Assembly: GCF_026241255.1 (NCBI RefSeq)
Contig: NZ_JAPHNC010000003.1
Coordinates: 124,001-188,000, forward strand
Reading direction: 5' to 3'
Length of the DNA stretch: 64,000 nt
Source: Helicobacter sp. MIT 21-1697
GTDB taxonomy: Bacteria; Campylobacterota; Campylobacteria; Campylobacterales; Helicobacteraceae
The position numbers were made by a program, and so were the translations under genes. Below the pieces are notes generated by a model. That model was not told where the DNA came from, ran no database searches, and saw only the letters and a list, made by a program, of their open reading frames with translations. Positions within the stretch are counted from its first letter, which is position 1; each line of letters begins with the position of its first letter. Below, in pieces: positions 1 to 63,724 of the stretch.

Positions 1-1
1 T

Positions 2-424
2 AACAAATCAATTGCTATTGCTCCAGACCAAGAAAGTTATAATAAAATTCTCTCCCTTGCACCCAATACAAGCTTTTCTCATATTGATTTATTAGGTGCA
101 TTTTTGGCAAAAGATGGCATTAATGACCCAAAACCTAAGCATCTAATACAATTTTGCAATGTGTATAGCATAGGATTATTATATATTCTTGCTTCTAATG
201 GTGTCAATGTGCTTGATTGCCAGAGTTTTAGTATCCTTGAGGTATTGCCTTTTGATAAACCGCAACTTGAAAACACACAAGCACCATTTTTTTCGCGTAT
301 TGTAAATATAGACACAGGCTCTCTTGCAAGCAAGCTACGTTCAAAAAAATCGCGTCAATACTTTCCTTATTATGACAATTTATTGCGCCAAAGCCTTAAA
401 TCATTTGAGAATCTTAAAAACTAA
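2..424 (+). CDS. C-terminal part of an unidentified protein upstream of glcD
   Basis: The frame is open from the left edge of the window to a TAA at 422-424, giving 140 residues of a protein whose start lies outside. The residues look like real protein (mixed hydrophobic and polar segments, ending in a basic stretch SKLRSKKSRQYFPYYDNLLR). I do not recognise a domain. In H. pylori the gene just before glcD is the plasminogen-binding protein gene pgbA (HP0508), so homology to the conserved N-terminal part of PgbA is possible from position alone. The end here lacks the very lysine-rich tail expected of PgbA. The gap to glcD is 16 bases, so the two are probably cotranscribed. Confidence 0.6.
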   Translation, partial: NKSIAIAPDQESYNKILSLAPNTSFSHIDLLGAFLAKDGINDPKPKHLIQFCNVYSIGLLYILASNGVNVLDCQSFSILEVLPFDKPQLENTQAPFFSRIVNIDTGSLASKLRSKKSRQYFPYYDNLLRQSLKSFENLKN

Positions 425-440
425 GGAGAAAGGAGTAAAT

Positions 441-1841
441 ATGTTCAATAAGTCTCACATTCAAGCTATAAAAAATATTGTGGGAGAGGAAAATTGTTAT
501 GATGACAAGGCACATTTGGTGGCATATTGTTATGATGCTACAAGGGAACGTTATGAACCTGATGCGGTAGTGTTTCCGCGCAATGAACAAGATGTGAGCT
601 TAATTTTAGCCTATTGTAATGAGCATAAAATACCTGTTATTCCACGCGGTGCAGGAAGTGGATTCACAGGTGGAGCATTACCTGTGAATGGAGGAATTAT
701 CCTTGCATTGGAGCGATATTTTAATAAGATTCTAGAAATTGATGAAAAAAACCTTATAGCGCGTGTCCAACCCGGTGTAGTTAATAAAATGTTTCAAGAA
801 GCCGTGGAGGCAAAGGGTTTATTTTATCCACCTGACCCAGCAAGTCAAGAATACAGCACGCTTGGAGGAAATGTCAGCGAAAATGCAGGCGGTATGCGTG
901 CTGCAAAATATGGCATTACTAAAGATTATGTTATGGCGTTGCGTGCAGTGCTTCCAAATGGCGATATAATTCGCGCAGGAAAAAAAACAATTAAAGATGT
1001 CGCAGGATTTAATGTCGCGGGGATTCTCATAGCGAGTGAGGGTTCGCTCGCAGTGATTACTGAAATTACGCTTAAACTTATTGCTAAGCCGAAGTTTGCG
1101 CGTTCGGCTATGGGTGTGTTTGCTGATATAGAATCTGCAATGAATGCTGTGTATAAAACAATGGCAAGTGGAATTACGCCTGTGGCAATGGAGTTTTTGG
1201 ACAATTTGAGCATTCGTGCCGTAGAAGAGCGATTTTCTAAAGGATTGCCCATTGATGCTGGAGCGATACTTATTACTCAAGTTGATGGCGATATGCCAGA
1301 GCAAGTAAGTTTTCAGCTTGAGACTTTGCAGGAGCGATTTAAAGAAAATGGTTGCATTGAGTTTAAAATTGCGCAAAATGACGAGGAAGCACAAAACCTG
1401 TGGTTTGCAAGACGCAATGTGAGCCAAAGTATTACAATTTATGGCAAAAAAAAGCTCAACGAAGACATCACCGTGCCTCGTTCCGCGCTCCCCGAGCTGC
1501 TTAATAGAATCTCCGCATTGAGTGGCAAATATAGCTTTAAGATTCCCTGCTTTGGACATACAGGCGATGGCAATGTGCATGTAAATGTAATGGTGCCTGA
1601 CCCAAATGATAAGCAATCCCTTAACAAAGGATATGAGTGTATTGAGGAGATTTTTAAAATTGCGATTGCACTTGAGGGCACACTTAGTGGTGAGCACGGC
1701 ATAGGTTTGTCAAAAGCACCTTTTATGCGTTTAGCTTTTAGCGAGGCAGAGATGAATTTATTTGCTCATATCAAAAAAGCTTTTGACCCCAACAATATTC
1801 TTAACCCGGGAAAAATGGGGCTTAATATGGAGAATGTATAG
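441..1841 (+). CDS. glcD: FAD-linked glycolate/D-lactate oxidase subunit GlcD
   Basis: 466-residue flavoprotein of the GlcD/D-lactate dehydrogenase family, which oxidises 2-hydroxy acids such as glycolate or D-lactate and feeds electrons to the respiratory chain. The N-terminal PCMH-type FAD domain shows PRGAGSGFTGGAL at about residues 68-80 and a GGNVSENAGG segment; the C-terminal FAD-oxidase domain carries GHTGDGNVHVN and the closing motif SGEHGIG...FDPNNILNPGK. The start is placed at ATG 441 because AGGAG lies 7 bases upstream and the protein then has the usual family length; an earlier in-frame start would overlap the preceding gene. The 3' end overlaps the convergent gene by 20 bases. 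The exact substrate cannot be told from sequence. Confidence 0.93.
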   Translation: MFNKSHIQAIKNIVGEENCYDDKAHLVAYCYDATRERYEPDAVVFPRNEQDVSLILAYCNEHKIPVIPRGAGSGFTGGALPVNGGIILALERYFNKILEIDEKNLIARVQPGVVNKMFQEAVEAKGLFYPPDPASQEYSTLGGNVSENAGGMRAAKYGITKDYVMALRAVLPNGDIIRAGKKTIKDVAGFNVAGILIASEGSLAVITEITLKLIAKPKFARSAMGVFADIESAMNAVYKTMASGITPVAMEFLDNLSIRAVEERFSKGLPIDAGAILITQVDGDMPEQVSFQLETLQERFKENGCIEFKIAQNDEEAQNLWFARRNVSQSITIYGKKKLNEDITVPRSALPELLNRISALSGKYSFKIPCFGHTGDGNVHVNVMVPDPNDKQSLNKGYECIEEIFKIAIALEGTLSGEHGIGLSKAPFMRLAFSEAEMNLFAHIKKAFDPNNILNPGKMGLNMENV

Positions 1842-2469
1842 AATCTGATTGATAAATTAAAGTTGATTGAGGAGATTCAAAAAAGGCTTTGGGAAAAAGA
1901 TAAGTTCCTTTAAAAGCGGAAAAATCTATATATTCATAGGGTAAATTGAGTGTAATGTGGGGAGAGAGGATAGATTCTAAAAGTGTAGTGCAGTATAATG
2001 ATGAAGTATCTCCGCTTAAAACAAAAGGCTCTCCAAGCCATAGAGTAGCTTCAAGGGCAATTTTTTCACGCGTCTTAGTAGAAAAATCAAAACGTTTAAT
2101 GGCGATTTGTTTTGCGTGGAAAAGAAATTCATCAAGTGAGCTAAGTATCACTTGGTTGGGTTTTGTGGGATTATCATCGGGTGTGGCGTGAAGAATGATA
2201 ATAGGCTGTGTGGAGACTATTAAACCAATATGTGTATAGGGGTGGTTGCTTAATGTTTGTATGACTATGCTTTCTATACCTTTGCCCTCTCGCAAGATAA
2301 TATCACCTATTTCAAGCGAAGGAAGTGTGTTTAGAATTTGAGATGTATCTGTAAAAGAAGTGTGTGATGTATTAAAAGGGTATAGAGTGTATAAAAGCTT
2401 TGTAGCACTGATTGCCACAAAGCCAAGAGCAAGATAAATAAGTTTAGAGGTTAATTTTCCACTCATCAT
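1822..2469 (-). CDS. YiiX/YaeF-type permuted papain-fold (C92/NlpC-P60-like) protein
   Basis: About 215 residues with an N-terminal hydrophobic helix (LIYLALGFVAISATKLLYTL) that probably anchors or exports it. It then shows the YiiX-family pattern: GDIILREG, a histidine in HPYTHIGLIV, and a cysteine in SLYCTTLLESIL, the expected His and Cys of the permuted papain fold. Members are thought to hydrolyse amide or lipid-linked bonds in the envelope; no substrate is known here. TTG 2472 and ATG 2469 and 2466 are possible starts. All overlap the end of the upstream lipoprotein gene, which suggests translational coupling. Confidence 0.72.
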   Translation of the reverse strand: MMSGKLTSKLIYLALGFVAISATKLLYTLYPFNTSHTSFTDTSQILNTLPSLEIGDIILREGKGIESIVIQTLSNHPYTHIGLIVSTQPIIILHATPDDNPTKPNQVILSSLDEFLFHAKQIAIKRFDFSTKTREKIALEATLWLGEPFVLSGDTSSLYCTTLLESILSPHITLNLPYEYIDFSAFKGTYLFPKAFFESPQSTLIYQSDSIHSPY

Positions 2470-2839
2470 CAACTTTAATAAGCTTTATTGTCTCATCATT
2501 TTCGCTTCCATTTTTAAAACGCACAAGCACTTTAATGATTGCTTTTTCCTCTTTGACATCTTCAGAGACAACTTCAATCTTCTCTATCCCATCAGATTCT
2601 TGGGCTTTGCGTTCTGCCTTTGTCGCTGCAGCTTTGAGCTTACCTTCAATAACTTCTTTCATCTCTTTTTCTTTTTTAGACAAATTGATGTATTTTATCA
2701 ATTTATCACCATTGCCTTTATACACATCTTCGGTAAAAGCTATCGCCACATCTTTGGGTGAGCTTTCTCCACAAGCAACAAACAAAAGAGCAATCATTCC
2801 TAAACCTAAAGCCAAAATTAACTTTCTTAGTATTGTCAT
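2444..2839 (-). CDS. DUF4878-type lipoprotein
   Basis: 131-residue predicted lipoprotein. A signal peptide ends in the lipobox LLFVAC, with the cysteine at about residue 23. The mature part matches the DUF4878 pattern: SPKDVAIAFTEDVYKGNGDKLIKYI near the front, then a charged linker, then a beta-rich end with VLVRFKNGSENDETIKLIKVDDEWKINL. DUF4878 proteins have an NTF2-like fold and are periplasmic or membrane-attached; their role is unknown. The stop overlaps the start of the YiiX-like gene by 26-29 bases, so the two probably form one transcript. Confidence 0.8.
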   Translation of the reverse strand: MTILRKLILALGLGMIALLFVACGESSPKDVAIAFTEDVYKGNGDKLIKYINLSKKEKEMKEVIEGKLKAAATKAERKAQESDGIEKIEVVSEDVKEEKAIIKVLVRFKNGSENDETIKLIKVDDEWKINL

Positions 2840-2902
2840 CTTAAAATCCTTTGTGTGAAATTAAAAATTAAACGCGTATATTAATAAATTTAACACAAAA
2901 AA

Positions 2903-4075
2903 TCAAGGAGTTTGTATCGGCGGAGATTTGTATGCAAGGAATCCAATAATATTAAGCATTACACTTAGGCATAAAAGTGTAATAAGCGAATATGTGAAAT
3001 TGTGATATAAATCATAGAGCTTGCCAATAAGCACAGGAGCAAGACAAGCAAGGAGATAACCTATACCTTGAGCCATAGCAGAGAGTTTAGTGGCAATTTG
3101 CACATTAGCACTTTTGCTTGAAATAAGCAGTAAGGCAATGCCAAATACACCTCCAACTGGGATTCCAAGAAGTATTGAAACAAGCACAATCACCCATAAA
3201 TCCTGCGTATAAAGCAAAGTAGAAAAGCTAAGCATATAAAGCCCACAGATACTCCCTATAAAAATCTTTTTGCGCTCTTGTGAGAGTGAGCCGAGTATAA
3301 GCGGTGCAAAAAACGAGGAGGGAATAACAATCATTTGGGATAGAATCATCATATTTGAGGCAAAAGATTGAGTGTAACCAAAAGAGATGATAAAGCTAGG
3401 ATACCAAGTAAAAAAACTATAACCGATTATGCTTGTAAATCCCATAAAGAGCGTAATATTCCACGCGCTTAAATTTGCCCAAAGCGTGCCCCTGAAGTGT
3501 ATTTTTACTTTTGGACGTGAGATTCTATGATTTGTCATTTGAGGCAGGTAGCTTAGGATTGCCATTATTGCCAAGCTTGCCCAGCAGCCCATAGCCATAG
3601 GCACAGATAGAATATGTGTGAGAGGTAAAATTGCAGCAATGCCAAGCGTGGCAGAAATATTAATCACAAGGCTATAAATGCCCATAATTTTAGGGACATC
3701 GCGAGGAAATTTTGTCTTAACAAAGCTAGGAAGCAAGACATTGGCTACTGCAATGCCACCTCCCATAATCGCCGTGCCAATAAATAGCTCTACACTTCCG
3801 CCCATACATCGCACAATCTCTCCTGTGAGAATACATAAAAGTCCTAGAAACATTGCTTTTGTAGGCTGAAAAATCGCGACTATGAAAGAAATAATACCAA
3901 ATGCAAAAAGTGGTAAAGAAGTGAGTAATCCCGCTTGTGCTGCACTTAGATGATAATAATCTCTAAGCAATTCAACTATTGGTCCCACAGAAGTGATAGG
4001 TGCGCGAAGATTGAGACTGATAAGCAAAATAGGTAAAAGATTAATGAAAAAGATTTTTTTATGTAATGTCATCAT
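2903..4075 (-). CDS. MFS transporter, CynX/NimT (YycB) type
   Basis: 390-residue membrane protein with about twelve hydrophobic helices. The first loop and second helix read LRAPITSVGPIVELL then LSAAQAGLLTSLPLFAFG, the signature of the CynX/NimT branch of the major facilitator superfamily (cyanate permease, 2-nitroimidazole exporter). The substrate is not predictable from sequence. ATG at 4075 or the adjacent ATG at 4072 are both possible; AAGGA lies just upstream and suits 4072 slightly better. The gene diverges from ilvB, and the roughly 130 bases between them hold promoters for both and a tandem repeat. Confidence 0.87.
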   Translation of the reverse strand: MMTLHKKIFFINLLPILLISLNLRAPITSVGPIVELLRDYYHLSAAQAGLLTSLPLFAFGIISFIVAIFQPTKAMFLGLLCILTGEIVRCMGGSVELFIGTAIMGGGIAVANVLLPSFVKTKFPRDVPKIMGIYSLVINISATLGIAAILPLTHILSVPMAMGCWASLAIMAILSYLPQMTNHRISRPKVKIHFRGTLWANLSAWNITLFMGFTSIIGYSFFTWYPSFIISFGYTQSFASNMMILSQMIVIPSSFFAPLILGSLSQERKKIFIGSICGLYMLSFSTLLYTQDLWVIVLVSILLGIPVGGVFGIALLLISSKSANVQIATKLSAMAQGIGYLLACLAPVLIGKLYDLYHNFTYSLITLLCLSVMLNIIGFLAYKSPPIQTP

Positions 4076-4136
4076 ATTTCCTTCATAAAATCTCTTTGCA
4101 TTGTATAAAATGAGTATAAATCCTTGCGAAATTGTA

Positions 4137-4158
4137 TTATTAAGTAATTATTAAGTAA
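4137..4158. repeat. Tandem 11-bp repeat upstream of ilvB
   Basis: The sequence TTATTAAGTAA occurs twice with no gap (4137-4147 and 4148-4158), so identical faces repeat once per helical turn. It lies about 50 bases before the ilvB start, just upstream of a -10-like TTTATATTG near 4170. The placement fits a binding site for a regulator of the ilv-pdx operon, but no regulator is identified. Confidence 0.5.
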
Positions 4159-4204
4159 ATTTTGGTATTTATATTGTCTTTGAATTATTATGGAAGGGGT
4201 ATTT

Positions 4205-5917
4205 ATGAAAGTAATGACAGGAGCCCAAATGCTTATTCAAGCCTTACATCTTGAGGGTGTAAAGGTTGTTTTTGGCTATCCGGGCGGCGCAGTATTACAT
4301 ATTTATGATGAGATTTATAAACAAAACTATTTTTCACATATTCTTGCACGACACGAACAAGGTGCGGTGCATTCGGCTGATGGTTATGCGCGTAGTAGCG
4401 GAGAGGTGGGTGTAGCAATCATCACTTCAGGTCCGGGATTTACAAATGCTATTACAGGTATCGCCACAGCCTATACAGATTCTATTCCTCTTGTCGTTAT
4501 TAGCGGACAAGTGCCTATTACGCAAATTGGCACTGACGCATTCCAAGAAATTGACGCAGTGGGGATTTCTCGCCCTTGCACAAAGCATAATTTTTTAGTG
4601 CGTAATATTGCCGAATTACCCAGAATCCTTAAAGAAGCTTTTTATATTGCGCGAAGTGGGAGGCAAGGTCCTGTGCTTGTAGATATTCCAAAGGATATTA
4701 CGGGCACTTTAGGCGAATTTACCTATCCCGAATCTGTTGCACTTCAAAGCTATAAGCCTACCATAAAAGGCAATTCGCGTCAGATTAAAAAACTTTGTGA
4801 AGCTATTATGAGTGCGCAAAAACCTTTATTTTATATTGGTGGAGGAGCTATACTTTCAAATGCAAGTGAGATTATCCGTGAAATCGTGCATTGCACAGGG
4901 ATTCCGTGTGCTGAAACACTTCTTGCGCGTGGGGTGCTAAGATATGATGATGAGAATCTGCTTGGTATGCTTGGTATGCACGGAAGCTATGCTGCAAATA
5001 TGGCAATAAGTGAGTGTGATTTGCTTGTATGTTTGGGTGCGCGCTTTGATGATAGGGTAACAGGCAAGTTGAGCGAATTTGCAAAAAATGCAAAAATTGC
5101 CCATATTGATATTGACCCAAGCTCTATTGGCAAAATTGTGGCGGTGGATTATCCTATTGTAGGGGATTTGAAGCATATTGTATCAGATATGATGATTGAG
5201 CTAAGCGGATATGATACGCAAAAAATTATGAAATGGAGAGAGCATTTGCGCTCTTATGCGCTTGCACACCCTATGAATTTTGAAGATAGTGTAGATTCCA
5301 TTAAACCTCAATGGATTATCCAAAGACTTGGTGAGCATTTAGGCGAGAATGCAATCATTACTACTGATGTGGGGCAGCATCAAATGTGGGCAGCGCAGTT
5401 TTATCCTTTTAGCTTTCCGCGTCAATTTTTAAGCAGTGGTGGGCTTGGCACAATGGGCTATGGTTTGCCTGCAGCACTTGGCGCAAAACTCGCGCGTGAA
5501 GATAAAACTATTATTAATATTACAGGTGATGGCTCAATTTTAATGAATATCCAAGAGTTGATGACTTGTGTTGTGTATGGCATTCCTTTTGTCAATGTGA
5601 TTTTAAACAATAATTATTTAGGAATGGTGCGACAATGGCAAAGCTTCTTTTATGAGCATCGTTTTTCGCATACGGATTTGAGTTTGCAGCCTGATTTTAT
5701 TAAACTTATAGAATCTTTTGGTGGTGTAGGCTTTAGAGTAGAGAAAAAAAGTGAATTTGACGGGGCACTTCAAAAGGCATTAGATTCTAAAAAAGTGGCA
5801 TTTATTGAAGTAATGATAGATAGATACGAAGATGTCTTGCCAATGGTGCCAAGCGGGGGAGCAATCTATGAGATGATTCTCTCAAGTGAAAAAAAAGCTT
5901 TCAAAGAAGAGGAGTAA
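4205..5917 (+). CDS. ilvB: Acetolactate synthase large (catalytic) subunit
   Basis: 570-residue thiamine-diphosphate enzyme that condenses two pyruvates to acetolactate, or pyruvate with 2-oxobutyrate, the first common step of valine, leucine and isoleucine synthesis. Domains in order: TPP pyrimidine-binding domain with the catalytic glutamate in LARHEQGAVH (about residue 51), central FAD/TPP M-domain with CLGARFDDRVTGKL, and the TPP-PP domain with GDGSILMNIQEL and NNNYLGMVRQWQ. ATG 4205 is chosen over ATG 4190 because GGAAGGGG is spaced for it and the family begins with MTGAQM. It overlaps ilvH by one base (TAATG), typical of coupled subunits. Confidence 0.96.
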   Translation: MKVMTGAQMLIQALHLEGVKVVFGYPGGAVLHIYDEIYKQNYFSHILARHEQGAVHSADGYARSSGEVGVAIITSGPGFTNAITGIATAYTDSIPLVVISGQVPITQIGTDAFQEIDAVGISRPCTKHNFLVRNIAELPRILKEAFYIARSGRQGPVLVDIPKDITGTLGEFTYPESVALQSYKPTIKGNSRQIKKLCEAIMSAQKPLFYIGGGAILSNASEIIREIVHCTGIPCAETLLARGVLRYDDENLLGMLGMHGSYAANMAISECDLLVCLGARFDDRVTGKLSEFAKNAKIAHIDIDPSSIGKIVAVDYPIVGDLKHIVSDMMIELSGYDTQKIMKWREHLRSYALAHPMNFEDSVDSIKPQWIIQRLGEHLGENAIITTDVGQHQMWAAQFYPFSFPRQFLSSGGLGTMGYGLPAALGAKLAREDKTIINITGDGSILMNIQELMTCVVYGIPFVNVILNNNYLGMVRQWQSFFYEHRFSHTDLSLQPDFIKLIESFGGVGFRVEKKSEFDGALQKALDSKKVAFIEVMIDRYEDVLPMVPSGGAIYEMILSSEKKAFKEEE

Positions 5918-6402
5918 TGATGGAAGCAAAAAATACAGAGCTCAAAAAAAGCATTTGTATAAATGTTATCAATGAGCATAGCGTTTTAGCAAGGATTTCA
6001 GGGCTTTTTTCTGCGCGTGGATACAATATAGAATCTCTGACTACTGCTCCTATTCCCAATAGCAATCTCTCGCGCATTACGATTGTAACACAAGGTTCTG
6101 AAGTTGTTATTGAGCAGATTATCAAACAACTTCATAAGCTTATTCCCGTAGTGAGCGTTATTTCAAGTGATGATTTGCTTGAGAAGGAAGCGGTGTTGGT
6201 AAAGATTCCATTAAGTGAATCTTTGGCAGATATAGAGGCGTTGTGTAAGGCTTATAATGGCAAGATTGCAAATGCGAATGAAAAATATATTATTGTGATT
6301 GCCACCGATAAACCTTCAGCGATTAATCAATTTATTGCAGCTATTAGAATCTTTAACCCAAAAGAGATTATACGAAGTGGCGTAATTGCTATGGAACGAT
6401 AA
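5917..6402 (+). CDS. ilvH: Acetolactate synthase small (regulatory) subunit
   Basis: 161-residue regulatory subunit that binds the large subunit and confers valine feedback inhibition. An ACT domain spans about residues 9-85 (ICINVINEHSVLARISGLFSARGYNIESL is the typical start), followed by the ALS_ss C-terminal domain. Full family length. The start codon overlaps the ilvB stop, and AAGAGGAG sits just upstream. It is followed closely by pdxJ in the same direction. Confidence 0.95.
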   Translation: MMEAKNTELKKSICINVINEHSVLARISGLFSARGYNIESLTTAPIPNSNLSRITIVTQGSEVVIEQIIKQLHKLIPVVSVISSDDLLEKEAVLVKIPLSESLADIEALCKAYNGKIANANEKYIIVIATDKPSAINQFIAAIRIFNPKEIIRSGVIAMER

Positions 6403-6411
6403 GGAGAAGAA

Positions 6412-7215
6412 ATGTCTATACGATTAGGTGTGAATATTGATCATATTGCGACTTTGCGTGAAGCAAGGGCTATTTATGAGCCCGACCCACTTGAAGCAGT
6501 TTTTATTGCAAAAAATGCAGGTGCGCATCAAATCACATTTCATTTGCGTGAGGATAGGCGACATATTCACGACAGCGATGTCCAGCGTATCGTGCAATCA
6601 AGTCCTTTGCCCATTAACATAGAATGCGCACTTGATGAAAAAATTATTGATTATCTTTGTGGCTTAAAGCCCCAACGCATTACACTTGTGCCTGAAAAAC
6701 GAGAGGAAATCACCACAGAGGGTGGATTGGATATAGAATCTCATTATGATAGCATTCGCGATACACTCAAAGCTTTTGAATCTTGTGGCATTGCGAGTGC
6801 GCTTTTTATTGATCCTAAAAAGGAAGCCATTTTCCTTGCGCGTGAGCTTGGTGCGCAGGCAGTAGAGCTTCATACAGGCAGATATGCAAATTTGATGCTT
6901 ATGGCATACAGCAATCTCTCTCGCACACATCGTGCTTTGCAAGAGTTTGCGCTTCCCACACAAGAAATAAATGAGGAGATTTCTCGCACACTTGATGATA
7001 TTGCACAATGTGCTAAACTTGCCACTTCAACTATTGATACGCGTCATCTTGAATGCTTTGCGGGGCACGGATTGAATTATCAAAATGTAAGCGCAATCGC
7101 GCAGATTCCACAAATAAGTGAGCTTAATATCGGGCATAGTATTATTGCAAGGGCTGTATTTGTAGGATTGGAGCGAGCAATTATACAAATGCGAGAGACA
7201 ATGTGCCAAAAATAG
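6412..7215 (+). CDS. pdxJ: Pyridoxine 5'-phosphate synthase PdxJ
   Basis: 267-residue TIM-barrel enzyme that condenses 1-deoxyxylulose 5-phosphate with the product of PdxA to pyridoxine 5'-phosphate, in the DXP-dependent vitamin B6 pathway. The hallmark start MSIRLGVNIDHIATLREAR is present, as are FHLREDRRHIHD, TLVPEKREEITTEGGLD, ELHTGRYA and the closing ELNIGHSIIARAVF. It is slightly longer than the roughly 240 residues typical outside this group. AAGGAGAAG precedes the ATG. Its end overlaps pdxA by 13 bases, so the two pathway partners are translationally coupled. Confidence 0.96.
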   Translation: MSIRLGVNIDHIATLREARAIYEPDPLEAVFIAKNAGAHQITFHLREDRRHIHDSDVQRIVQSSPLPINIECALDEKIIDYLCGLKPQRITLVPEKREEITTEGGLDIESHYDSIRDTLKAFESCGIASALFIDPKKEAIFLARELGAQAVELHTGRYANLMLMAYSNLSRTHRALQEFALPTQEINEEISRTLDDIAQCAKLATSTIDTRHLECFAGHGLNYQNVSAIAQIPQISELNIGHSIIARAVFVGLERAIIQMRETMCQK

Positions 7216-8199: not shown

Positions 8200-8790
8200 A
8201 TGTGGCGGCATTTTCTAGTCAAGTTGGTATTGCTTTATCTTGTTATTGCCCCCCCCCCTGTGCAGGCAAGAGAGAATCAATTTGAGCAATTTGGCGATGC
8301 GTTTAGGTTTTTACCTGTGTATGTGATGGTGGTATCTTTAGCAATGGAGGATTATGAGGGTGTGGGGCAACTTGCACTCGGCACTTTAGGTACACAGCTT
8401 GTTACAGAGGGTATCAAATGGGGATTTGATAGCGCACATAAGAATGGTAATAGTGTAGCTTTTGCTAAAAGACCTTGTTGTGAGGATTGGAAAGGTATGC
8501 CAAGCGGACACGCAAGTGGTGCATTTAGTGCAGTGGGATTTGTATATTATCGTTATGGTTGGAAACCTGCTATTCCTGTGGGTATCCTAGCGGTGCTCAC
8601 TGCTGCTTCAAGAGTAGAGGCGAAGAAACATTCAATTTTACAAGTAAGTGTAGGGGCAGCTCTTGCGTGGGGATTCTCATATATTTTTACACATAAATAT
8701 ATGCCTAAAAACACGATGATTATGCCAAATGTTGATACAGATATGCAGGGCAATCCTGCTTTAAGCCTTAATGTGCGATATAGCTTTTAA
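8200..8790 (+). CDS. PAP2-family lipid phosphatase with C10 tract in its signal peptide
   Basis: 196-residue acid phosphatase/PAP2 protein, probably inner-membrane or periplasmic and acting on lipid or lipid A phosphates. All three catalytic motifs are visible: K(x6)RP ending at R91-P92, PSGH at 101-104, and SR(x5)H at 137-144. A signal peptide covers about residues 1-23. A run of ten C (8249-8258) encodes the APPP just before the predicted cleavage site; at C10 the frame is open (ON). H. pylori has related PAP2 proteins (the LpxE HP0021 and HP0851); which one this matches cannot be settled here. Confidence 0.82.
   Translation: MWRHFLVKLVLLYLVIAPPPVQARENQFEQFGDAFRFLPVYVMVVSLAMEDYEGVGQLALGTLGTQLVTEGIKWGFDSAHKNGNSVAFAKRPCCEDWKGMPSGHASGAFSAVGFVYYRYGWKPAIPVGILAVLTAASRVEAKKHSILQVSVGAALAWGFSYIFTHKYMPKNTMIMPNVDTDMQGNPALSLNVRYSF
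8249..8258 (+). repeat. C10 homopolymer inside the PAP2 coding frame
   Basis: Ten consecutive C in codons 17-20 of the PAP2 gene. Gain or loss of one base would truncate the protein within the signal-peptide region, so the tract is a likely slipped-strand phase switch, here in the ON length. Confidence 0.7.
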
Positions 8791-15722: not shown

Positions 15723-15755
15723 TTGACTTTACAAAAAAAAAAAAAACGATATAAT
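15723..15755 (+). promoter_or_regulatory. Promoter with A14 tract as the -35/-10 spacer
   Basis: TTGACT (15723-15728, five of six matches to the sigma-70 -35 box) and TATAAT (15750-15755, perfect) are separated by 21 bases, of which 14 are a pure A run (15733-15746). The optimal spacer is about 17, so length change of the run would strongly alter promoter strength. It reads into the exported-protein gene at 15789. Confidence 0.65.
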
Positions 15756-21953: not shown

Positions 21954-22890
21954 ATGAAAGAAGCGGATTTTGAGGTGCTTATTTGCCTTAAAAGCCTTGA
22001 TAGCAAACTTTTTCCAACAATGATACGCTATGTAGAAACCAATATCAAGCCAAAAGGCATAACGCTTATCACTCATAGAGAGAGTATCGCGCAGTATAAG
22101 CAAAGCTATCCTCATATTTGTTTTATTGATGAGGATTGTGTTTATCCCAAGCTGACATTTGGTGCTGTGCAAGAGAAGCTCTCATCACTTGGCTGTGCGC
22201 TCAATCGTGCAGGTTGGTATTTACAACAATTCTTAAAAATGGCTTATTCTGCGCATCAGCACTCTGCTGCTTCAAGCAGCGGGGGGGGGGGGGCATTATC
22301 TCATTTGGGACGCGGATTGTATCCCTTTAAGAGATTTAAGCTTTTTTAACACTAAGGCTCAAGTCTTCATTGAAAAAACCAAAAAGTTCCACAAGCCCTA
22401 TTTTGATACATTGGATAGTCTTAAAATCCCTATGAGCAAAAGCGTGTATCTACACAAAGCCGCGCCTTTTAGCTTTATCACTGAAAATATGATGATAGAA
22501 TCCTCTGTGATGAATGAGCTTATTTCTCTCATAGAACAGAGGCATCATAAGGCATTTTGGGAGGCGATTTTAGAGCATATTAATCCCCTAGATTTGCCAC
22601 ACTCTGGCTTTAGTGAATATGAAAGCTATGGAAATTTTGTATATGCGAAATACCCCCATTCATTTGAAATCATCACGCGCAAAAGAGATAGATTTGCTAA
22701 AAGGCTTGTTGGTGAAGCGCCAAGTGAGGCATTACTCAAGTGGTATGCGAGAGATTATGAAGTTATAAGCATAGAATCGTGGGATAAAACAAGCTTTTTG
22801 TATCCATTCATTCAAAGATATACAATCTTTAGAATCTTCCCGCCACGATTCTATAAAGTCCTTTTAGCCCTCTTTGAGAGAATCCGATAG
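21954..22890 (+). pseudogene. DUF6492/glycosyltransferase-like gene, phase-OFF at a G13 tract
   Basis: Residues 1-109 (DFEVLICLKSLDSKLFPTMI...LNRAGWYLQQFLKMAYSA) read from ATG 21954 to a G13 tract; the current frame then ends at TAA about 20 codons later. The following frame continues with GHYLIWDADCIPLRDLSFF and runs to 22890. Dropping one G (G12) or adding two (G15) joins them into a 311-residue protein. The YLIWDAD segment resembles the metal-binding DxD region of glycosyltransferases, and the overall pattern fits the DUF6492 family. It is not a decayed gene but a contingency locus. It follows ilvD with no gap, so it may ride on that transcript. Confidence 0.82.
22281..22293 (+). repeat. 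G13 phase-variation tract
   Basis: Thirteen consecutive G after codon 109 of the DUF6492-like gene. A length divisible by three puts both halves in one frame; at 13 the gene is OFF. Confidence 0.85.
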
Positions 22891-24716: not shown

Positions 24717-24730
24717 AAAAAAAAAAAAAA
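24717..24730. repeat. A14/T14 homopolymer in the leader of the nuclease gene
   Basis: Fourteen A on the + strand (T14 in the transcribed direction) between the stop of the 612-residue gene (24738) and the nuclease start (24640). No GC-rich hairpin precedes it, so it is not a standard terminator. Its length is probably unstable. Confidence 0.6.
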
Positions 24731-60175: not shown

Positions 60176-61184
60176 TTAAGGTATTTGTGTGCCCCAAATA
60201 TCATCAAATTTTATCCAATCAGGAAATAAATGATGTGGCAAATAAGAGTGTGGATTGTAGCTAAAACGTGCTGGTGCGCAAATAAGTTTAGAGGGATTAT
60301 TAATAAGAAAAGCTGCCCAATAGCTAAAAGTGGAGTTTGCCATAATGCCATTTTGACAACTTCGCATAAGTGTGAGGTCTTCTATTGCATTACCCTCATC
60401 ATTACCTTCTATAAATACAAATTCTACTTGGCGATAAAGGATAGAATCCAAGCATTGTGTGAAATGTTGCTTACACCAAAGTATATCATCGCTAAAAACA
60501 AATACTATCGGACGAGAAACTTTCTTTATAAGCTCCTTAAGTGCAGCATTATAATAGGCGCTGCCAAGTTTGATAAATGTCCAATGTTTATCTAAATAAT
60601 AATCTCCTCTGCGAATGTGTAAAAACGCAGAGTTTGGTGTGGAAATAATGTGTTTTTGTAGGATTTGTGTGTGCTCACTCAAAAAAAGTGGTGTAAATTC
60701 TTTGCGAAGTATGCTCTCTATCTCTGAAAAATATTCACGATGAGTAAAAAATCCTTCAAAATATGTGCGCGAGCAAAATTGTTTATGAGCGCAAAATTGT
60801 GCCATAAGCTCGGGAGATTCATAAGTTATAAGGGGTTTGGTTAATATTTTTGTCAAAGTTGGATAAAAGAAGCGTAGGCGAGAGTAAATCTTTGCAAGAA
60901 TCAAATCATAATAATTTTTACTATATGGTTTTGGGAGGCAAAATCGCAAAATAGGCAAAGAGATTGCAAAGCGCGTTAATTCAAGATTACGAATATGTGT
61001 TTTCGCCCCCCCCCCCGTTTATTTTTGCTTTTTGTAAAGAAAAAAGATGAGGTTGCAAGTCTGAATATTTGGTATATCCCCACGCTGCATCAAGCGCAAC
61101 TTCATATCCACGATGAGCCAAAGTGCGTGCAAATGCGTATTGGAACATTTGATTTCCCAATCCCCCTTGTAGCAATACTTTCAT
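60176..61184 (-). pseudogene. Alpha-1,2-fucosyltransferase (GT11), phase-OFF at a G11 tract
   Basis: From ATG 61184 (AAAGGAG upstream) the protein begins MKVLLQGGLGNQMFQYAFA, the GDP-fucose GT11 signature. After 56 codons a G11 run (minus strand) leads to a stop 11 codons later. The other frame continues to 60176 with HIRRGDYY, FVFSDDILWC and MANSTFSYWAAFLI, the remaining GT11 motifs. G10 or G13 would restore about 335 residues. In H. pylori the equivalent FutC makes the H/Lewis-type fucose cap of LPS and is also switched by homopolymer slippage, so this is a contingency gene, OFF here. Confidence 0.9.
61006..61016 (-). repeat. C11/G11 phase-variation tract in the fucosyltransferase gene
   Basis: Eleven C on the + strand, G11 in the coding direction. 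The correct frame needs 10 or 13. Confidence 0.88.
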
Positions 61185-61203: not shown

Positions 61204-61256
61204 ATTATAGGGGCAAATTATATCAAAAATCTGTTTTTTTTTTTTTTTGATATAAT
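61204..61256. promoter_or_regulatory. Divergent promoters sharing a T15 tract
   Basis: T15 (61234-61248) is followed two bases later by TATAAT (61251-61256) reading right into the DUF285 lipoprotein gene. On the other strand TATAAT boxes at 61222-61217 and 61209-61204 read into the fucosyltransferase, with the tract in the -35 region of the first. One length-variable tract thus touches both promoters. Confidence 0.6.
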
Positions 61257-61298: not shown

Positions 61299-62192
61299 AT
61301 GAACAAACTTTTATATCTAATGATGTGTGTCATAATGGTATTTATAAGTAATGGTTGCGAGGATTCCCAAAAAACAAAGTATAAATACCACCCAAAAGAT
61401 AGAGCGGAGTTGGTAGAGCTGCTTAACAAAACAGATGCCATTCATTTAAGCGAGATTGATACAAGTGCTATTACCGATATGAGTTATCTTTTTTCACGCT
61501 TTAGCACAGAGCAATGCCACGATTTATTTGCAGAGTATTTTAAATTTATAGAATCTTTTGTGATTATCACCACTATGGAGCAAGCTGCTCAAAAAGGGGA
61601 TAAGTGGATTCCCACAGAAGCAGATAAGCAGGCTATGAAAGATTATCTCATAGCACAATGGGAGACAGAGAGGGAGAAGTGCGTTCATAATGTCAGAGGG
61701 AGAACAGATTTTAGTGGGATAGAATCGTGGAATGTAGCTAATGTCAAGGATATGAGTTATATGTTTGGGGGTGTGGAGAACTTTAATGAGCCTTTGGGCA
61801 AATGGAATGTAAGCAGGGTGCAAAATATGCGCGGTATGTTTGTTAAAACTGCATTTAACCAAGATATACAATCGTGGGATACTTCAAATGTGGAGAATAT
61901 GAATGCGATGTTTGCAAGAAGTGCGTTTAATCAGCCGCTCAATGGCTGGAATGTGAGTAAAGTTAAGGATATGTCTTTAATGTTTTATGAAACATCGCAT
62001 TTCAATCAACCTTTGAATGATTGGGATATTTCACAAGTAGAGGATATGAACTTTATGTTTCAAGAGAGCAAGGTTTTTTATCAAAACCTTGCGAGTTGGG
62101 GCGAGAAGCTTAATCCTCAAGTGCGGACATATTTGATGTTTGAGGATTCGCCTTTGCAATCAAACCCACCCAAATGGTATAAAAGGATATAA
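61299..62192 (+). CDS. BspA-like/DUF285 repeat lipoprotein
   Basis: 297 residues. A lipoprotein-like signal ends at about Cys20 (MVFISNGCED). The body carries 23-25-residue DUF285 (BspA-like) repeats of the form W-N-V-S-x-V-x-x-M-x-x-MF: ESWNVANVKDMSYMF, GKWNVSRVQNMRGMF, QSWDTSNVENMNAMF, NGWNVSKVKDMSLMF, NDWDISQVEDMNFMF. A non-repeat insert of about 70 residues interrupts the first unit. Such repeats occur in surface adhesins of mucosal bacteria and protists. Its promoter abuts the T15 tract. A likely surface protein; binding partner unknown. Confidence 0.87.
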   Translation: MNKLLYLMMCVIMVFISNGCEDSQKTKYKYHPKDRAELVELLNKTDAIHLSEIDTSAITDMSYLFSRFSTEQCHDLFAEYFKFIESFVIITTMEQAAQKGDKWIPTEADKQAMKDYLIAQWETEREKCVHNVRGRTDFSGIESWNVANVKDMSYMFGGVENFNEPLGKWNVSRVQNMRGMFVKTAFNQDIQSWDTSNVENMNAMFARSAFNQPLNGWNVSKVKDMSLMFYETSHFNQPLNDWDISQVEDMNFMFQESKVFYQNLASWGEKLNPQVRTYLMFEDSPLQSNPPKWYKRI

Positions 62193-62215: not shown

Positions 62216-62338
62216 ATGTGTTTAGATTCTATAAAAGTGCGAGAATCTAAGATGATGACACTGCATTTTGATGGTATATATCGTGCTACCCATATTGGAG
62301 AATGCGAAACTTTAGATTTTCCTCACTCACAGCCCTAA
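62216..62338 (+). CDS. Possible 40-residue peptide (weak)
   Basis: An ATG-to-TAA frame of 41 codons (MCLDSIKVRESKMMTLHFDG at the start) lies in the gap after the DUF285 gene and overlaps the transporter stop. There is only AGAGCAG upstream and no recognised family. It may be a gene remnant or chance. Confidence 0.2.
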   Translation: MCLDSIKVRESKMMTLHFDGIYRATHIGECETLDFPHSQP

Positions 62339-63724
62339 AGATGTAAAAATAAAATCTACCGCGTCCTGCCCTGTAAAAAACTTTATACTTACCGCTACAA
62401 GTATCATAATAGTAATAAGCGGTGCGATAAAGCGCATAATAATATGCCAAAATGCAAAGGCAGTGTTATTAAAAAAATGTGCGGTGTATTGTCGTAATTG
62501 AGCCTTTGGCACAGCCCAGCCGATAAATATAACTGCTAAAAGTCCCCCGAGCGTCATAATCACATTTGCAGAGAGAAATTCAACGCTATCCATAAGCGAC
62601 TTGCCACCAATAGTGAGATATTCTGCCATAGGTGTGCAAATGGAGCAAATGATAAGAAACCCAAGTGCGCTAATTGCCCCAGCAATGCTCCAAGTCGCTT
62701 TTGCTCTGCTCCAATGATAGGTTTCACACACATACATTACAGCAGGTTCAAGGAGCGAAATCGCAGAAGTAATCCCCGCAAAACTAAAGGCAATGAGGAA
62801 TAAACAAGCGATGGTATTGCCTAATATGCCAAGATGAGAGAGCATAACAGGCAAAGTTATAAAGATGAGTCCAGCACCTCCTCCTACTTCACCATTATAT
62901 TCATATACAAATGTAAAAATCATAAGTCCAGCCATAATGGCGATTAAAATCCCAGATAGCACTACCCAAAGTGCGCTTTTGAGGAGATTCTGATTGCTTT
63001 GAGAGGAGGCAGCATAAGTGATGATGATACCTACCCCGAGTGAGAGTGAGAAAAACACCTGCCCTAGAGAATCAATAAATACATTAAGTGTCAGCGCTTT
63101 TTTGGCTTCATTTATATCAAAGCTTAACATAAAATGCACAGCCTTACTAAAAGAATCCATACTCATCGCATAGAGTAATAAGACAAAAAATATAATAAAA
63201 AGAAGTGGAGTAAGGACAAGATTCAAAGCTTCAATGCCTTTTTTAACGCCGCGAGAGATAACCAATGCTGTGATGCCCATTACAAAAAACAAACCGAGCG
63301 TTTGTGGCACAAAGCCATTTGTATAGAGAGTGTTAAAGATTGTTTCAGAGGTGTGCATATCGTTAGGGAGGTTAAAGCTTACCATAAAGAGATAGTAAAA
63401 TACCCAGCCTAGCACGATGGCATAAAAAGATAAGATAATAGGACCGCCAATAAGCGTAAAACCAGCCAAACGCCATTTTTTATTTGGACTTGGGTCAAGA
63501 TTCTCATAGCTTTTAACAGCATTAGCGCCCCCCCCCTTGTTTCCAATAAGCATTTCTCCAATAAGCATTGCAATGCCAAGTGAGAGTGCTAAAAATAAAT
63601 ACAAAAGCACAAACGCCCCCCCGCCATTTGTCCCAGCAATGTAGGGAAAACGCCAAATATGTCCCAAGCCCACAGAGCTACCAAGTGCCGCGAGAATAAA
63701 ACCGATTTTGCTAAAATTACTCAT
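62327..63724 (-). CDS. Neurotransmitter:sodium symporter-family (SNF) transporter
   Basis: 465-residue inner-membrane Na+-coupled amino-acid or amine symporter with about 11-12 helices. The first helix has the family signature GSSVGLGHIWRFPYIAGTNGGGAFVLLYLF; next comes GIAMLIGEMLIGNKGGGANA, and helix 6 has SLGQVFFSLSLGVGIIITYAAS. The substrate cannot be named. A G9 tract (C9 on +) falls in the helix-2/3 loop (NKGGGANA) with the frame open, and a G7 run lies in the NGGGAF motif. It is preceded by a roughly 275-base region with little content. Confidence 0.9.
   Translation of the reverse strand: MSNFSKIGFILAALGSSVGLGHIWRFPYIAGTNGGGAFVLLYLFLALSLGIAMLIGEMLIGNKGGGANAVKSYENLDPSPNKKWRLAGFTLIGGPIILSFYAIVLGWVFYYLFMVSFNLPNDMHTSETIFNTLYTNGFVPQTLGLFFVMGITALVISRGVKKGIEALNLVLTPLLFIIFFVLLLYAMSMDSFSKAVHFMLSFDINEAKKALTLNVFIDSLGQVFFSLSLGVGIIITYAASSQSNQNLLKSALWVVLSGILIAIMAGLMIFTFVYEYNGEVGGGAGLIFITLPVMLSHLGILGNTIACLFLIAFSFAGITSAISLLEPAVMYVCETYHWSRAKATWSIAGAISALGFLIICSICTPMAEYLTIGGKSLMDSVEFLSANVIMTLGGLLAVIFIGWAVPKAQLRQYTAHFFNNTAFAFWHIIMRFIAPLITIMILVAVSIKFFTGQDAVDFIFTSLGL
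63528..63536 (-). repeat. C9/G9 tract in the symporter gene
   Basis: Nine C on the + strand encode KGGG in a cytoplasmic loop. The frame is open at this length; one-base slippage would truncate the protein near residue 65. Confidence 0.55.

Follow-up and report, generated by a model that had tools for sequence, protein, structure and literature searches.

A T15 tract between the predicted promoters of a DUF285 lipoprotein gene and a frameshifted fucosyltransferase gene in Helicobacter sp. MIT 21-1697

Poly-T promoter switches have already been published for sabA and NikS of Helicobacter pylori, and a two-way T-tract switch has been published for Streptococcus pyogenes. The promoter of NikS (HPnc4160) contains a length-variable T stretch upstream of its -10 box, which is T14 in the wild type and gives a multiphasic output as its length changes (PMC8322730, PMC8035401). 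At sabA, T13 to T17 are the most common promoter tract lengths (PMC4081817, PMC2715451), and the promoter tract is accompanied by a frameshifting coding repeat (PMC2715451). In S. pyogenes, a T homopolymer lies between the divergent genes Spy1336 and R28-Spy1337, one of which encodes a surface protein, and one-base changes in the tract alter both transcripts (PMC7098570). The classical divergent repeat promoter is that of hifA and hifB of Haemophilus influenzae, with the repeat located in the combined promoter of two divergent surface genes (PMC2651432, citing van Ham 1993). Candidate promoter tracts have also been listed in H. canadensis, where most consist of G (PMC2823697).

We analyzed a window of 64,000 nucleotides from Helicobacter sp. 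MIT 21-1697 (G000:C3:124001-188000), in which a T15 homopolymer separates two divergent genes. The genome to which the window belongs (G000) was surveyed by pattern searches and selected stretches. From a genus group of 11 genomes, the locus was compared with H. japonicus MIT 01-6451 (G004) and two genomes that are probably H. hepaticus (G002) and H. typhlonius (G010). The features of the locus are as follows.

61299-62192, plus strand: DUF285 gene, 297 aa, predicted surface lipoprotein (PF03382, E 5.6e-51).
60176-61184, minus strand: fucT, GT11 fucosyltransferase gene, interrupted (PF01531, E 1.6e-25).
61006-61016, minus strand: G11 tract inside fucT (C11 on the plus strand), out of frame in this assembly.
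61234-61248, plus strand: T15 homopolymer directly 5' of the DUF285 -10 box, a member of a T13-17 class.
61248-61256, plus strand: extended -10 TGATATAAT of the DUF285 gene, with TATAAT at 61251-61256; perfect match to TTTTTGNTATAAT.
61217-61225, minus strand: extended -10 TGATATAAT toward fucT, first candidate, with TATAAT running from 61222 to 61217, within TTTTTGATATAAT; TGTTATAAT occupies the same place in G010.
61204-61209, minus strand: second TATAAT toward fucT (CCCCTATAAT), running from 61209 to 61204; CCCTATAAT is also present in G010 and H. japonicus.
61217-61256: 13-bp perfect inverted repeat ATTATATCAAAAA / TTTTTGATATAAT, composed of both -10 regions.

The domain matches bear out the identities of the two genes given in a preliminary description of this DNA, and inspection by eye shows a signal peptide in the DUF285 product, along with an imperfect lipobox, ISNGC. 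The tract ends where that description had placed it, two bases (GA) before the DUF285 TATAAT. It is the only T15 in the window; dinucleotide shuffles contained 0.06 on average, with at least one in 5 of 100 shuffles. The 64 kb contain exactly two perfect matches to TTTTTGNTATAAT, and these form the divergent pair at T15, with their -10 hexamers 28 bp apart. The DUF285 -10 conforms to the gnTAnaAT box of epsilonproteobacterial sigma-70 promoters (PMC3847290). A search for a -35 element in the DUF285 promoter gave one match in six positions and nothing recognizable, and the classical spacer model was therefore dropped for this promoter in favor of the upstream geometry of an extended -10. A consensus promoter scan, which demands a -35, detected neither divergent promoter. 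Some other members of the T13-17 class do have TTGACT at 16 bp.

On the fucT side, the location of the tract depends on which -10 is considered. For the first candidate, A15 lies 11 bases upstream at its near edge and covers the -35 region (about 61240-61245), as had been proposed. That placement does not hold for the second hexamer, the one implied by where the preliminary description begins, for which the tract lies just upstream of the -35 and not over it. The locus resembles two kinds of system in its layout: a long T tract lies in a predicted promoter upstream of the -10, as at poly-T contingency loci of the NikS/sabA type, and it also lies between two divergent predicted promoters, as in two-way repeat switches of the hif and Spy1336/R28 type. 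The closeness of the two extended -10 boxes raises an alternative, in which overlapping polymerase sites make the promoters mutually exclusive and tract length shifts the balance between them in opposite directions. The predicted polymerase footprints would overlap at this distance, but use of the second fucT -10 would lessen the overlap, and we regard such competition as unlikely.

The T15 tract is one of a number of similar tracts in the genome. T runs of at least 12 bases occur 23 times in G000, all of them 13 to 17 long, and the base that follows is G in every case (23/23). When all runs of at least nine bases are counted, G follows 38 and A or C follows 23; the 38 shorter runs, each exactly nine long, are followed by G in 15 cases and by A or C in 23. 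G thus follows T13 or longer at 23:0 against 15:23 for the shorter runs (Fisher p=4e-7). The pattern TAnnnT follows within three bases in 18 of the 23 long runs, compared with 7 of the 38 nine-base runs (p=8e-6); because this pattern is loose, the totals are more reliable than any single -10 assignment. The enrichment fits the situation in Campylobacter jejuni, where a gnTAnaAT box was found at 948 of 992 mapped starts and no -35 was found (PMC3847290). This shared context of G and TAnnnT marks T15 as one member of a predicted promoter class, belonging to the DUF285 side. Two A14 tracts elsewhere in the window (15733-15746 and 24717-24730) are also members of the class; further long homopolymers in the window are G13 at 22281-22293 and C10 at 8249-8258.

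The same pattern was observed in H. hepaticus, where G is the next base after all 24 runs of T13 or longer, a check that is only partly independent because promoters are shared between these related genomes. An assembly artefact is an unlikely source of the pattern, since the H. hepaticus genome is a single contig. A whole-genome run census found no T runs of 10 to 12 bases in G000 and one in H. hepaticus, a scarcity that may be caused by selection or by a slippage equilibrium. Across 119 genomes of the family, runs of T13 or longer are followed by G 813 times and by A or C 156 times, with a much weaker bias in two well-populated genera (22:17 in g4 and 47:32 in g13). In a more distant genome (G015), TAnnnT lies within three bases of 15 of 29 runs. 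We found no description of a genome-wide T13-17 promoter class in the open-access papers searched; neither this class nor the frameshift in fucT had figured in the preliminary description.

G000 and H. hepaticus share ten tract promoters whose flanks can be aligned, and the tract differs in length in seven of them (for example, T14/T16 and T16/T13; one pair, L071/L124, aligns weakly). Unequal lengths between species are what slippage predicts. They also bear on the possibility that the tract is a fixed element, that is, T-rich DNA upstream of a -10, as in related bacteria, whose exact length hardly matters. In favor of it, T15 itself has the same length in the two species in which it was found, G000 and H. 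hepaticus, so that length change at this tract is only putative, and sigma-70 promoters of C. jejuni have a periodic upstream signal and no -35 (PMC3847290). Against a fixed element stand the seven unequal tracts and the changes in expression that accompany tract length at NikS and sabA, and we consider this reading improbable.

Inspection of the genes next to the 23 tracts revealed a T-side gene at 16 tracts, a gene on the other side only (an A tract and then the gene) at 6, and neither at 1. A single orientation for all tracts was rejected on this split; the class holds two orientations. The T-side genes encode four chemoreceptors or chemoreceptor-like sensors, a PAS protein and, among others, a TonB receptor, DUF2860, TRL-like and alpha-2-macroglobulin-like proteins, a GmrSD restriction enzyme, DoxX, and a WYL regulator. 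On the A side are genes for a further Cache-domain sensor and for two outer membrane proteins of the Helicobacter family. Members in the second orientation (TTTAC-A14/15-C[GA]ATATAAT or similar) are at L112, L113, L119, L121, L099:1045-1059, and L075, and in H. hepaticus and G010 several of these apparently have a DUF285 gene behind them. A divergent gene start lies within about 100 bp in five T-side cases, T15 included; the partners at the others are DapD-like, MetK, a flagellar rod protein, and one unknown. The arrangement of T15 and fucT is thus not unique even in G000. A broader proposal is that Helicobacteraceae possess a dedicated class of promoters with 13 to 17 T just upstream of the -10, of which some species have about 20 per genome and which drive genes for chemoreceptors, outer membrane proteins, lipoproteins, and a restriction enzyme, and that T15 has been captured by the divergent fucT promoter so that one slippage event changes both genes. 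Taken as a whole, this proposal appears doubtful to us.

The divergent pair and the tract are not kept together in H. hepaticus, G010, or H. japonicus. At the syntenic position, H. hepaticus has CAAAAATCTG-T15-GATATAATC and no fucT. The order there, all in one direction, is Sel1, the T15 promoter, an unknown gene, an ankyrin gene, and DUF285; the unknown and ankyrin genes come before DUF285 behind this promoter, which counts against our preferred explanation, set out below. In G010, Sel1 is followed by fucT in the opposite orientation, and the upstream sequence TTTGTTATAATTTGCCCCTATAATAAGCC corresponds to the fucT promoter core of G000 (44 of 47 bases kept, by manual count), but the T tract sought at this gene is absent. 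The G010 orthologue of the DUF285 gene shares the -10 but has just T6, in the sequence T6-GATATAAT, and this too counts against the preferred explanation. H. japonicus has Sel1, fucT, and a cytochrome c peroxidase gene in that order, and no T tract at fucT. Since relatives separate the tract from fucT, the tract travels with the DUF285-side promoter, and it was seen next to fucT only in G000. Co-conservation of the pair and the tract was treated as supporting evidence for a two-way switch, not as a defining feature. A copied DUF285 fragment adjoins fucT in G010 (L098:3172-3816); it is a copy of the stretch where two DUF285 genes meet, about 20 kb away (L099), and suggests recombination at that spot.

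The fucT gene has a repeat of its own. Its reading frame runs for 65 aa, shifts at G11, and meets a stop; the remaining 260 to 273 aa are open in another frame. G11 and the out-of-frame state also occur in the fucT orthologues of G010 and H. japonicus (65 and 71 aa). A coding homopolymer that breaks the frame, in the same way in two relatives, is the pattern of a phase-variable GT11 fucosyltransferase. Because the assembled fucT is out of frame, no enzyme could result from slippage in the promoter alone. The locus resembles sabA in combining a promoter T tract with a frameshifting coding repeat, but at sabA the tract is next to the -35, outside and upstream of the core promoter, and a single gene is subject to both repeats, whereas at this locus each of the divergent genes has one of the two. 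Two coding G tracts are also present in the neighboring SNF-family symporter gene (62327-63724, minus strand; C9 at 63528-63536 and C7 at 63616-63622). Orthologues have G9 (L100), G10 (L101), or C13 (L099) at one of the two positions, and the symporter may also be phase variable.

Taken together, these data make it probable that T15 is a promoter tract that tunes the DUF285 gene by slippage and that the main switch of fucT is the G11 tract within its coding region. In living cells, slipped-strand gain or loss of T's would alter how the extended -10 is placed relative to the contacts that RNA polymerase makes upstream, with everything upstream rotated and displaced relative to the DUF285 -10, and expression of DUF285 would then differ among cells in a graded manner. 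The fucT promoter presumably came to adjoin T15 in the lineage of G000. At fucT, the tract would serve at most as an upstream element or an A-rich -35. The flank fixes the edge of the tract that faces fucT, and gain or loss of one or two bases would keep AAAAAA at the -35 position, so the predicted effect on fucT is small. A modest or helical-phase effect of T15 on fucT, by analogy with sabA (PMC4081817), is possible.

A true two-way switch, in which a single slippage event alters both the DUF285 promoter (upstream of the -10) and the fucT promoter (at or upstream of the -35), seems unlikely to us. Two perfect TTTTTGNTATAAT boxes face apart across the tract, tracts of 9, 10, and 11 T between the S. 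pyogenes genes alter both transcripts (PMC7098570), and a T tract beside the -35 tunes sabA (PMC4081817). On the other side, G010 keeps the fucT promoter core without a tract, fucT of H. japonicus lacks one, and H. hepaticus has the tract without fucT; the fucT -35 region stays all A after small length changes, and fucT is out of frame. The described systems also differ from this locus. NikS is a small RNA and not a surface protein, and the neighboring transcripts tested there were unaffected by the tract. The S. pyogenes tract has 9 to 11 T, and its partner gene encodes a transcription regulator, so that the coupling may be partly regulatory. At hifA/hifB, the repeat is a TA dinucleotide and both genes act in one pathway, fimbriae (PMC2651432). 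The earlier view that a shared tract links the two genes is thus upheld as to anatomy, in which the tract separates a divergent pair of extended -10 promoters, and not as to a dedicated joint switch, given that tract and fucT are separate in relatives, that 23 tracts share the context, and that fucT is out of frame. The overlap of T15 with the fucT promoter appears to be a juxtaposition that is local and species-specific. Nor can it be said that few bidirectional homopolymer switches have been described, S. pyogenes being a direct counterexample (PMC7098570) and hifA/hifB a dinucleotide case (PMC2651432).

The T15 locus is a modest addition to the known poly-T promoter switches, and it cautions against taking every tract between divergent genes for a joint switch. 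Of greater use is the wider pattern, in which G follows nearly every T run longer than nine bases in both G000 and H. hepaticus, mostly with a candidate -10 box no more than three bases away. It provides a simple list of candidate slippage-tuned promoters, several chemoreceptors among them, in bacteria with few transcription regulators.
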